Part shown: in pieces, positions 49,739 to 53,826 of the stretch
Numbering within the stretch: position 1 is the stretch's first letter
How the letters are laid out: every line of letters begins with the position of its first letter
NCBI GenBank assembly: GCA_020344335.1
Contig: CP070821.1
Span: forward strand, 383,626 to 440,104
DNA from: Gammaproteobacteria bacterium
GTDB lineage: Bacteria > Pseudomonadota > Gammaproteobacteria > UBA9214
Reading direction: 5' to 3'
Length of the DNA stretch: 56,479 bases
The notes under the pieces: model-generated
The model's input: only the letters and a program-made list of their open reading frames with translations
What the model was told of the DNA's origin: nothing
The model's database searches: none
Made by a program: the position numbers and the translations under genes

Positions 49739-51250
49739 ATGTGCGGCATCATTGGTATTGTTTCCCGGAGACCTGTCAATCAGGCTATCTATGATGGTCT
49801 GACCGTGCTGCAGCACCGCGGGCAGGATGCGGCAGGTATCATGACCTGCGAGGGCAGCCACCTGCATCTTCGCAAGAGTAACGGGCTGGTACGTGATGTC
49901 TTCCACACAAGGCACATGCTGCGCCTTCACGGCAATATGGGTATTGGACATGTGCGCTATCCAACTGCAGGCTGCGAAAGTTCTGCTGAGGCACAACCTT
50001 TCTACGTCAACTCGCCCTACGGTATCAGCCTTGCACACAACGGCAACCTGACCAATGCAAACACCCTGAAACTGGAACTTTTCCAGGAAGATCTGCGACA
50101 GATCAATACGGAATCAGATTCCGAAATCCTGTTGAATGTATTTGCCCACGAGTTGCAGCAGCAAGGCAAATTGCGCATGGATGTCACTGATGTCTTCCGT
50201 GCTGTGGCGGGAGTGCACCGGCGCTGTGAGGGCGCCTACGCGGCGATTACCATGATCACCGGCTACGGGATCCTGGGTTTCCGCGATCCCTGCGGAATCC
50301 GTCCGGTCGTATACGGCAAGCGTGAAACAGAGGATGGTACAGACTATATGATCGCTTCCGAAAGTGTGGCACTGGATGTGCTGGGGTTCGAGCTGGTCAG
50401 GGATATCGCGCCGGGTGAAGCCATATTCATTGGTCTCGACGGTCAGGTACATGCCCAGCAATGTGCCGATAACGTGATGCATTCACCCTGTATTTTTGAA
50501 TTTGTCTATCTCGCAAGGCCGGACTCCATCATTGACAATATCTCTGTTTACAAGGCGCGCCTGCGTATGGGAAATCGCCTTGCAGAAAAAATACGCAGGA
50601 TCCGACCGGACCACGATATCGATGTCGTTATTCCGATACCGGATACCAGCCGCACCTCGGCATTGCAGCTTGCCAACAATCTCGGTCTCAAATACCGGGA
50701 AGGCTTTATGAAGAACCGCTACATTGGCAGGACCTTTATCATGCCGGGCCAGCAGCAGCGCAAGAAATCCGTGCGCCAGAAGCTCAATGCCATTGACCTC
50801 GAGTTCAAGGGAAAAAACGTGCTGCTGGTAGACGATTCCATTGTGCGCGGCACTACCTCGTCCCAGATTATCCAGATGGCGCGCGATGCCGGTGCAAACA
50901 AGGTGTATTTCGCCTCGGCAGCGCCCCCGGTGCGTTATCCAAACGTGTACGGAATCGACATGCCCGCCGTGGATGAACTGATCGCACATGATCGAAACGT
51001 CGAGGAAGTGCAGGAAGCCATCGGCACGGACTGGCTCGTTTACCAGGACCTCGATGACCTGGTTGAGGCCGTCAGCAAGGGGAATCCGGATATCGACCGC
51101 TTTGATGCTTCCGTATTCACCGGGGAGTACATTACCGGAAATGTTGGTACAGATTACCTGAACAGCCTGCGGGCCGCGCGCAATGATTCTGCCAAGGACA
51201 GCCGGCGTAGCAGGGATGACGAGGCGATTGACCTGCACAACACGGCATGA
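49739..51250 (+). CDS. purF: Amidophosphoribosyltransferase PurF
   Basis: A 503-residue enzyme for the first step of purine synthesis. The nucleophile is Cys2 in MCGIIGIV, so the start is certain; QHRGQDAAG and the glutaminase site [10 protein letters not shown] follow. The PRPP loop is [16 protein letters not shown]. It ends about 50 bp before the SAM-II aptamer. Confidence 0.97.
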
Positions 51251-51301
51251 TGGCATGAATAGCATTGACAGCATTACCGGCCTGAAATAATCTGGTGCTG
51301 A

Positions 51302-51352
51302 CAGCGCCGATTTGATTTCAGCTTGCGGGCGCCTTACAAATACAGCTAAAGC
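51302..51352 (+). promoter_or_regulatory. SAM-II riboswitch aptamer upstream of metZ
   Basis: The short SAM-II pattern is present nearly in full. A five-pair P1 stem joins 51304-51308 (GCGCC) to 51328-51332 (GGCGC). The loop starts with GATTTGA (51309-51315) and contains GCTTGC (51321-51326). After the stem comes ACAAATACAGCTAAAG (51336-51351), the conserved 3' part that closes the pseudoknot. These elements match known SAM-II aptamers in order and spacing. High SAM should stabilise the fold and lower expression of the next gene, metZ, which fits the known targets of this class. Confidence 0.88.
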
Positions 51353-51359
51353 GACGGCA

Positions 51360-51392
51360 CCTGCTTTCGCGAAGCTGAAAGCGGGTTTTTTT
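51360..51392 (+). terminator. Intrinsic terminator (expression platform) ahead of metZ
   Basis: CCTGCTTTC (51360-51368) pairs with GAAAGCGGG (51377-51385), with one G-T pair, around the loop GCGAAGCT; seven T follow (51386-51392). It lies 8 bases after the SAM-II aptamer and 18 bases before the metZ start. The loop and 3' arm (AAGCTGAAA, 51372-51380) are perfectly complementary to TTTCAGCTT inside the aptamer (51316-51324), so an antiterminator can form when the aptamer is not folded. Confidence 0.85.
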
Positions 51393-51410
51393 ATGCCCAG
51401 GAGTCAACCG

Positions 51411-52604
51411 ATGTCAGACAAGCACGATGGTCCGGATTTCGAGACACTTGCAATCCGGGCCGGGCAGGTAAGAACCGCGGAGGGAGAACACTCCGAGCCG
51501 ATATTCCCGACTTCCAGCTTTGTTTTCGAGAACGCGGCTGCTGCCGCGGCACGCTTTTCCGGTGAGGAACCGGGTAATATCTATTCACGGTTCACCAACC
51601 CGACCGTGCGCATTTTCGAACAACGGCTCGCCGCCCTCGAGGGCGGGGAGTGCTGTGTCGCCACGTCATCCGGCATGGCGGCGATTCTTTCCGTCTGCGC
51701 GGCCCTCCTCAAGACCGGTGACCATGTGATTTGTTCACGTAGTGTCTTCGGAACAACCACGGTACTTTTCTCGACGTACCTTGCAAAGTTCGGTATCGAG
51801 ACAACCTTCGTGCCGCTCGCAGACCTCGATAACTGGGAGCAGGCCATCCGGCCCGAAACACAGCTGCTTTTCCTGGAAACGCCTTCAAATCCACTAACAG
51901 AGCTGGTCGATATCAGGGCGCTGGCGGATCTGGCGCATGCCAACGGGTGTCTGCTGTGTGTCGACAACTGCTTTTGCACGCCGGCCCTGCAACAGCCGCT
52001 GGCGCTGGGTGCCGACCTAGTCATCCACTCGGCCACCAAGTACCTCGACGGACAGGGTCGATGCGTTGGCGGGGCTGTCATCGGTGATGAGGAGCGCGTC
52101 GGCAAGGATATCTTCGGCTTCCTGCGTACCGCCGGTCCCACGATGAGTCCCTTCAATGCCTGGGTTTTTCTCAAGGGACTCGAAACCCTGTCGCTGCGCA
52201 TGCAGGCGCACAGCAAGAATGCGCTCGAAATCGCGCGCTGGCTGGAACAACAGCAACACATCGAGCGTGTATTCCATCCGGGACTTGAATCGCATCCCCA
52301 GCATGATCTTGCCGGCAGTCAGCAGAAGGACTATGGGGGTATCGTCTCCTTCGAGGTAACCGGTGGCCAGAACAATGCCTGGTCTCTGATTGATGCCACC
52401 CGGGTATTTTCCATCACGGCGAACCTGGGAGATACCAAAAGCACGATCACGCATCCCGCGACAACAACGCATGGCCGCCTGACGCCGGAGCAGCGGGCAG
52501 ATACCGGGATAACAGATGGCCTGATACGCCTGGCCGTGGGACTCGAATCCGTAAATGACCTGGAGGCAGACCTTGAGCGGGGACTCGCGACCATCGGTCA
52601 CTGA
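51411..52604 (+). CDS. metZ: O-succinylhomoserine sulfhydrylase MetZ
   Basis: A 397-residue Cys/Met-metabolism pyridoxal-phosphate enzyme that makes homocysteine directly from an activated homoserine and sulfide. The cofactor Lys lies in IHSATKYLDGQGR; SSGMAAIL, LFLETPSNPL and VDNCFCTPALQQPL are typical; the end has THGRLTPEQR. The start at 51411 has AGGAG seven bases before it and follows the terminator; an ATG at 51393 touches the T-run and is less likely. The sulfhydrylase call rather than a gamma-synthase rests on overall resemblance. Confidence 0.92.
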   Translation: MSDKHDGPDFETLAIRAGQVRTAEGEHSEPIFPTSSFVFENAAAAAARFSGEEPGNIYSRFTNPTVRIFEQRLAALEGGECCVATSSGMAAILSVCAALLKTGDHVICSRSVFGTTTVLFSTYLAKFGIETTFVPLADLDNWEQAIRPETQLLFLETPSNPLTELVDIRALADLAHANGCLLCVDNCFCTPALQQPLALGADLVIHSATKYLDGQGRCVGGAVIGDEERVGKDIFGFLRTAGPTMSPFNAWVFLKGLETLSLRMQAHSKNALEIARWLEQQQHIERVFHPGLESHPQHDLAGSQQKDYGGIVSFEVTGGQNNAWSLIDATRVFSITANLGDTKSTITHPATTTHGRLTPEQRADTGITDGLIRLAVGLESVNDLEADLERGLATIGH

Positions 52605-53826
52605 TGTACGGGCTGACCTGCTGGCCATCTACCAGGCCGGACTTGCGGCGGTTGATGGTCACGCCTGTGTCAGCCGTTATCTGAACGCGAACATGCCGTC
52701 CGGGACGGTCTTTCTCGCAGCCATCGGCAAGGCGGCCTCTGCCATGGCGGCTGGCGCGAGGGACTCGCTGGGCGAACAACTCTCTCGGGCATTGGTAATC
52801 ACGAAAACCGGGCACCTGGATCCGGTGCTGCAACAGGATCCACGGTTTGTCTGTCGGGAGGCCGGGCACCCGGTGCCGACGGACGACAGCCTGGCCGCCG
52901 GACACGCACTGATTCGCTTCCTGGAAGAACTACCGGACAGTGCGGAACTGCTGGTTTTGATCTCGGGCGGGGCATCGAGCCTCGTCGAGGTGCTCCCCGA
53001 TAATGTCGGTCTCGACAAGCTGCGGGCGCTGAATGACTGGTTGCTGGCCAGTGGTCTGCCCATCCATGACATGAATCGTGTCCGCTCCGCGTTCTCCCGA
53101 ATCAAGGGAGGGCGCCTGCTACGCTGGATCGGCTCGCGGCCAACTACCGTACTACTCATATCCGATGTAGCTGGCGATAACCCGACGTTTATCGGTTCGG
53201 GACTGCTCTACACGGCAGACAGAAAACCGCTGGACAATTTCGAGCTGCCTGACTGGGTGACGTTCATCATCGGGAGTTCCCAGGGCGAGCCAGTACCCGC
53301 CGGCAATGAGTTGTCGGTGGAACACCATGTGGTGGCCAGGCTGGTGGATGCACTGGAGGCAGCACACCGGCATGCCGAATCCCTTGGCTATACGCCCACT
53401 ATCGTGACCCATGCACTATCCGGCGATGCACTGCAGGCCGGCCGGGATATCGTGAACCAGCTGCAGGACAAAAAGCCGGGCGCCTATCTCTGGGGGGGCG
53501 AGACAACCGTAAACCTGCCACCACGACCCGGGCAGGGCGGCCGTTGTCAAAGCCTTGCACTGTCTGCCGCATGCAGCCTGTCCGGCCAGGAGAATATCGT
53601 GCTGCTCGCCGCCGGCACGGACGGGACAGACGGACCCGGTACGGCGGCTGGCGCCATGGTTGATGGCAGCACCGTGGCGCGTGGCGCAGCGCGGGGTCTT
53701 GATGCCGGTCGTTGCCTGCAACAGGCAGATGCCGGTACCTTTCTGGAGGCCAGTGGCGACCTGGTGGTCACCGGGCCAACCGGCACCAATGTCACCGACC
53801 TGGTCATCGCGATCAAGTCGGAATGA
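52573..53826 (+). CDS. Glycerate 2-kinase (MOFRL type)
   Basis: A 417-residue enzyme that phosphorylates D-glycerate at carbon 2, as TtuD/GckA. FLAAIGKAASAMAAGA, CREAGHPVPTDDS, LISGGASSLVEVLPD and the MOFRL-domain LLAAGTDGTDGPG with VTGPTGTNVTD are seen. The chosen start is TTG at 52573, seven bases after GGAGG and inside the metZ end; an ATG at 52555 is possible. The overlap with metZ puts it under the SAM-II leader. The next gene overlaps by four bases. Confidence 0.9.
   Translation: MSGDSRPSVTDVRADLLAIYQAGLAAVDGHACVSRYLNANMPSGTVFLAAIGKAASAMAAGARDSLGEQLSRALVITKTGHLDPVLQQDPRFVCREAGHPVPTDDSLAAGHALIRFLEELPDSAELLVLISGGASSLVEVLPDNVGLDKLRALNDWLLASGLPIHDMNRVRSAFSRIKGGRLLRWIGSRPTTVLLISDVAGDNPTFIGSGLLYTADRKPLDNFELPDWVTFIIGSSQGEPVPAGNELSVEHHVVARLVDALEAAHRHAESLGYTPTIVTHALSGDALQAGRDIVNQLQDKKPGAYLWGGETTVNLPPRPGQGGRCQSLALSAACSLSGQENIVLLAAGTDGTDGPGTAAGAMVDGSTVARGAARGLDAGRCLQQADAGTFLEASGDLVVTGPTGTNVTDLVIAIKSE

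Follow-up and report, generated by a model that had tools for sequence, protein, structure and literature searches.

The 160-base gap between purF and metZ in the stretch of DNA analysed here (the window, 56,479 nucleotides) most likely carries a SAM-II-class riboswitch that acts by transcription termination to repress metZ and, probably, the glycerate kinase gene that overlaps it. We put the probability of this reading at about 80%. purF ends at 51250 and the ATG of metZ lies at 51411; between them the sequence runs from a promoter through a SAM-II-type aptamer and an intrinsic terminator to a Shine-Dalgarno sequence and then metZ. Aptamer homology, covariation, the promoter, the terminator and a conserved competing hairpin were computed, and from these we infer SAM as the ligand, termination in vivo and the direction of the SAM response. 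The features of the locus are the following.

49739-51250, plus strand: purF, the upstream neighbour (TIGR01134, 523 bits)
51265-51293, plus strand: promoter, from the sequence and homologues; -35 TTGACA 51265-51270, 17-nt spacer, -10 TAATCT 51288-51293
51304-51354, plus strand: SAM-II-type aptamer, from an RF00521 match and the relatives' covariance model
51304-51332, plus strand: helix P1, from covariation; GCGCC 51304-51308 with GGCGC 51328-51332, around loop L1
51316-51324, plus strand: L1 segment TTTCAGCTT of the sequence-only reading, exact complement of 51372-51380
51343-51354, plus strand: aptamer 3' strand CAGCTAAAGCGA with the core GCTAAA 51345-51350, from the alignment and from pairing with the terminator 5' half
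51343-51377, plus strand: predicted antiterminator hairpin (-16.3 kcal/mol); 51343-51347/51373-51377, 51351-51354/51367-51370 and 51356-51358/51363-51365
51359-51392, plus strand: intrinsic terminator, from folding and homologues; stem-loop 51359-51386, U-tract 51386-51392
51271-51391, minus strand: match to RF02424 (33.9 bits)
51399-51403, plus strand: Shine-Dalgarno AGGAG of metZ, from the sequence
51411-52604, plus strand: metZ, presumed target of the switch; O-succinylhomoserine sulfhydrylase of 397 aa (NCBIfam NF006003, TIGR01325)
52555-53826, plus strand: ORF resembling glycerate 2-kinase, starting within the 3' end of metZ (152 bits, under the equivalog cut-offs of 550 and 670)

The sequence-only reading had assigned the aptamer to SAM-II in all conserved parts, and the homologues bear this out. 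The core GAUUU (51309-51313), CUUGC (51322-51326) and GCUAAA (51345-51350), which holds the SAM-II ligand site, is present; L1 (51309-51326, GATTTGATTTCAGCTTGC) reads GATTTG...CTTGC and positions 51345-51354 read GCTAAAGCGA. Among 29 diverse aptamers GATTT, CTTGC and GCTAAAG are invariant, and the assumed structure of P1 and P2 pairs in 94.7% of cells compared with 24-46% in slid versions. In the 29-row alignment of relatives all five P1 pairs show changes on both sides, with 97.9% of cells paired. The P2 pairs, which join L1 to the 3' strand, are kept in 87.9-100%. Four of them (columns 21-65, 24-63, 27-58 and 28-57) pair in all rows without varying, which makes them uninformative for covariation, columns 20-66 show compensatory variation with two both-side changes and 4 of 29 rows unpaired, and columns 23-64 are unpaired in 10 of 29 rows. 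Since P2 is mostly invariant, its support comes mainly from the known SAM-II fold together with one covarying pair. The leader thus has the H-type pseudoknot P2 of the SAM-II class along with covariation in P1, the conserved core and a position 5' of methionine and SAM synthesis genes.

The closest known class is SAM-II (metA, SAM_alpha; RF00521) described by Corbino et al. 2005 (PMC1273637). A covariance-model search, which had been proposed as a check, found this family in a permissive scan of 251 bases (29.4 bits, E 4.5e-5), but the score falls below the gathering threshold of 36 bits, which is a database detection limit and not a biological property of the class. For this reason the Rfam scan of the whole window at curated thresholds returned tRNAs only and no riboswitch match. 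In the whole genome (2.6 Mb) the aptamer leads all other RF00521 matches by 11 bits. Compared with the alphaproteobacterial consensus, the form in the window has a shorter L1 and a nearly invariant UCAGCUUGC that replaces the GC-rich P2 extension, and these differences bring the score under the Rfam threshold. The long-loop family RF01726 did not match the aptamer (13.6 bits, E 4.7, gathering threshold 44). Matches to PyrG_leader, anti-hemB and group-II models in the permissive scan were at chance level, and the minimum free energy of the leader alone was uninformative (z -0.12).

Both the sequence and the homologues support a promoter of its own for metZ. The -35/-10 scores 5' of 126 homologous aptamers are 8.9 of 12 compared with 6.7 in shuffles, and the -10 mostly ends 11-17 nt 5' of GATTT. 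A simple sigma-70 scan of the window missed this promoter because its -10 is weak; it was the homologues that revealed it. Transcription presumably starts near A51301. The metZ product scores 704 bits with NF006003 (cut-off 522) and 575 bits with TIGR01325 (cut-off 510). The overlap of the glycerate kinase ORF with metZ is 50 nt for a start at ATG 52555 and 32 nt for one at TTG 52573, which lies behind GGAGG and is the likelier start. A similar ORF is found 3' of metZ in several relatives, so that the gene pair recurs. The two genes probably share an operon, and control of the kinase by the same switch, as suggested earlier, is plausible. MetJ was not detectable in the genome of the window.

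The aptamer is followed by the stem-loop ACCTGCTTTCGCGAAGCTGAAAGCGGGT and seven T, with a predicted fold of -14.8 kcal/mol. A strong terminator had been placed 8 bases 3' of the aptamer; the terminator stands, but the distance from 51354 is 4 bases, unless the aptamer is taken to end at 51350. A terminator stands behind 179 of the 218 homologous aptamers, in most cases beginning 12-32 nt 3' of the G of GCTAAA, and by the same method about 18% have none. Such terminators occur in metX, metK, metF and metN leaders as well as in purF-metZ gaps. The predicted GC-rich hairpin, the U-tract near the aptamer and the alternative pairing are those of an intrinsic-terminator platform. These terminators and the conserved competing hairpin support the logic of the earlier proposal, in which high SAM would free the terminator, and support its claim that aptamer folding and antitermination are mutually exclusive.

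In the mechanism that we propose, the RNA would start near 51301. With SAM present P1 would form and L1 would pair with the 3' strand GCUAAAGCGA as the pseudoknot P2. Held in P2, the 3' strand would leave the terminator 51359-51386 free to form, and transcription would stop in the U-tract to give a transcript roughly 92 nt long. In the absence of SAM, the 3' strand 51343-51354 would pair with the 5' arm and loop of the terminator (51363-51377) once these are made. This pairing would precede completion of the terminator 3' arm and RNA polymerase would read into metZ. Nearest-neighbour energies, which ignore the pseudoknot and kinetics, give P1 plus the antiterminator hairpin 51343-51377 at -25.0 kcal/mol when 51380 has been made in the growing transcript, and P1 plus the terminator at -25.9 kcal/mol once the latter is complete (window fold). 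The two states are near balance, and SAM could therefore tip the outcome by sequestering the 3' strand.

Which strand acts as the antiterminator was examined in 126 non-redundant leaders, with 188 terminators from elsewhere in the same loci as controls. The pairing of the 3' strand with the terminator 5' half has a median of -10.45 kcal/mol compared with -5.3 in controls (p 4e-35), and that of L1 with the terminator 3' half a median of -7.5 compared with -5.5 (p 1e-14); both complementarities are real as a pattern across leaders. In the pre-terminator fold the 3' strand is paired in 98% of the 126 leaders versus 65% of controls. The two differ when own partners are compared with swapped ones. 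The 3' strand plus linker against the terminator 5' half gives z -8.4, whereas L1 against the terminator 3' half gives z -2.2 (p 0.015), and in a stringent set of 41 leaders the values are z -3.5 (p 0.0002) and z -1.5 (p 0.07). Related leaders are not independent in these comparisons, but common descent by itself would not be expected, on average, to favour own partners over swapped ones. A hairpin between the 3' strand and the terminator 5' half is predicted in some form in all the same-family relatives examined (-10.6 to -17.4 kcal/mol). These folds and comparisons support the local hairpin of the aptamer 3' strand (CAGCUAAAGCGA) with the terminator 5' half as the predicted main conserved antiterminator.

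The sequence-only reading had instead taken as antiterminator a duplex of the L1 segment with the loop and 3' arm of the terminator, which aptamer folding would block, and we regard this as unlikely. Its coordinates and its match were right: TTTCAGCTT (51316-51324) and AAGCTGAAA (51372-51380) are exact reverse complements over 9 nt with a duplex energy of -11.9 kcal/mol. When L1 is set against the 3' halves of unrelated terminators, runs of at least 7 Watson-Crick pairs arise in only 0.3% of controls, so the 9-mer is no casual match. The advantage over control terminators across the 126 leaders speaks for it as well, as does a weak covariation of L1 with the terminator bases that follow GCTG (one variable position, p 0.023), and the L1 pairing could nest around the simpler pairing of the 3' strand with the 5' arm to give a four-strand exchange. 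However, loss of the 9-nt complementarity in close relatives that keep the aptamer had been named beforehand as the observation that would speak against the idea, and this is what was found: not one of the same-family relatives examined that retain the aptamer has the exact complementarity; their runs are 6-8 and some are in another register. The swapped-partner scores give the pairing little leader-specific support, and it disrupts P1. It also requires the terminator 3' arm and therefore forms only when the terminator can. The terminator 5' arm resembles L1 and the 3' arm resembles the aptamer 3' strand, and part of the complementarity follows automatically from this mimicry. The pairing of L1 with the terminator 3' arm is thus secondary or incidental; it may add to antitermination but is not required.

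A different possibility is that the terminator merely ends the purF transcript, 109-142 nt 3' of the purF stop codon, and that the aptamer acts in another way, for example on translation. This is very improbable, as the aptamer is separated from purF by a promoter and the same aptamer-terminator spacing is found in metX, metK, metF and metN leaders that do not lie behind purF; translational control is rejected because the metZ Shine-Dalgarno sequence is in none of the predicted switching pairs. That the aptamer is a SAM-II look-alike for SAH or another metabolite is hardly credible either: it scores under the Rfam cut-off, and some tandem relatives precede non-methionine genes so that specificity may have drifted in places, but no core nucleotide varies, and the genes downstream overwhelmingly serve the synthesis of methionine and SAM. 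Judged by these sequence features, SAM is very probably the ligand of the metZ switch.

Tandem SAM-II pairs were observed before non-methionine genes at several loci (L263 941-1190, L143, L027 2979-3140, L116/L260 2032-2210, L294 and L298), and one genome (G260) has several tandem copies. The first copy carries a terminator and the second is often of the type GATTTAA..ACAACTTGC. The targets include a MoxR-type AAA ATPase, small proteins that by eye resemble HD/RelA-SpoT-type hydrolases, and a protein family of L064, L260, L294 and L298 with 28-38% identity between genomes. A PD-(D/E)XK nuclease resembling Cas4 (L260 3748-4494) lies behind a tandem pair in a genome of the window's family. PADLOC on the tandem neighbours gave one protein with Cas4-type nuclease similarity, marginal matches for another and nothing else. 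The MoxR family PF20030 was tried as a marker of these neighbourhoods and does not discriminate, as it matches 281 of 369 genomes. Tandem SAM-II is already known (PMC9481103); no report of it before such non-methionine targets was found in the literature searched. A SAM-II-like subtype, GAGTTAACTGA(G)CAACTTGC..GCTAAAGCGT, was also observed in metK leaders of Burkholderia and Curvibacter (L253 and L252, near locus position 1500). According to an earlier report, betaproteobacterial metK lacks a known regulator (PMC4239095).

Taken alone, the locus is an ordinary SAM-II switch. It had been considered unusual in a gammaproteobacterium, and the survey does not agree, as about half of the class species carry the element. 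An exact-match search for the 18-base loop turned up the layout of this leader in numerous beta- and gammaproteobacteria. Of 57 relatives, 27 have a match. A covariance model of the relatives (29 aptamers, the window's own among the rows) detects the element at E <= 0.001 in 187 of the 369 species that sample the GTDB class, former betaproteobacteria included; about 0.4 false positives are expected from the E-value. At the same E-value RF00521 finds 121 of the 369, and 30 lie above its curated cut-off. MetJ was found in only four of the 369 genomes, that of the window not among them. A metZ-like gene lies 3' of 167 of 218 aptamers, with purF upstream in 97 of these 167 (many loci are too short to tell), and most other aptamers precede metX, metK, metF, metH, metN or metA, as named from protein motifs. 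SAM-II beyond the Alphaproteobacteria has been noted previously (PMC1273637, PMC2258182).

Among known systems, the metZ SAM-II riboswitch of Sinorhizobium meliloti with its sRNA RZ (Scheuer et al. 2022, PMC9373788) likewise places the aptamer before metZ, and predicted SAM-dependent termination yields a riboswitch sRNA as it would here. S. meliloti is alphaproteobacterial and its sRNA and mRNA were measured at high and low SAM, whereas the locus in the window is known from sequence alone. Leyn et al. 2014 (PMC4239095) presented as novel a metXZ RNA element in betaproteobacterial metX and metZ leaders, with six conserved regions and a possible pseudoknot followed by a terminator; SAM_alpha they reported from Rhizobiales and Rhodobacterales alone. 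In our sample the SAM-II element is present in betaproteobacterial leaders of metX and metZ, and by this context the metXZ element is therefore very probably SAM-II. Khoo et al. 2012 (PMC3521395) located the candidate Bp2_287 5' of methionine genes and proposed that it acts in cis; SAM-II is absent from their Rfam list. Its Rfam family, RF02424 ('Burkholderia sRNA'), matches the minus strand of Burkholderia purF-metZ leaders at 202 and 162 bits (L060 5211-5383 and L019 5336-5512). The model lies on the opposite strand and its conserved letters are the SAM-II aptamer read backwards, so that RF02424 is probably the reverse complement of a SAM-II leader, a strand error in a curated family, although it could conceivably represent an antisense transcript.

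Two published 'novel' RNAs thus appear to be the SAM-II element. The conserved antiterminator offers a concrete design for testing SAM-II termination control, which is only predicted in the literature compared. We lean towards the view that, of all SAM-dependent controls on methionine genes, divergent SAM-II is the most frequent one in beta- and gammaproteobacteria, which would explain both metXZ and the mis-stranded RF02424, and that it works as a strand-exchange platform in which the terminator arms mimic both pseudoknot strands. Of the class genomes with the element, the curated Rfam cut-off lets through roughly one in six. As a result, methionine regulation looks unexplained in many beta- and gammaproteobacteria even though it falls within the reach of a known riboswitch class.
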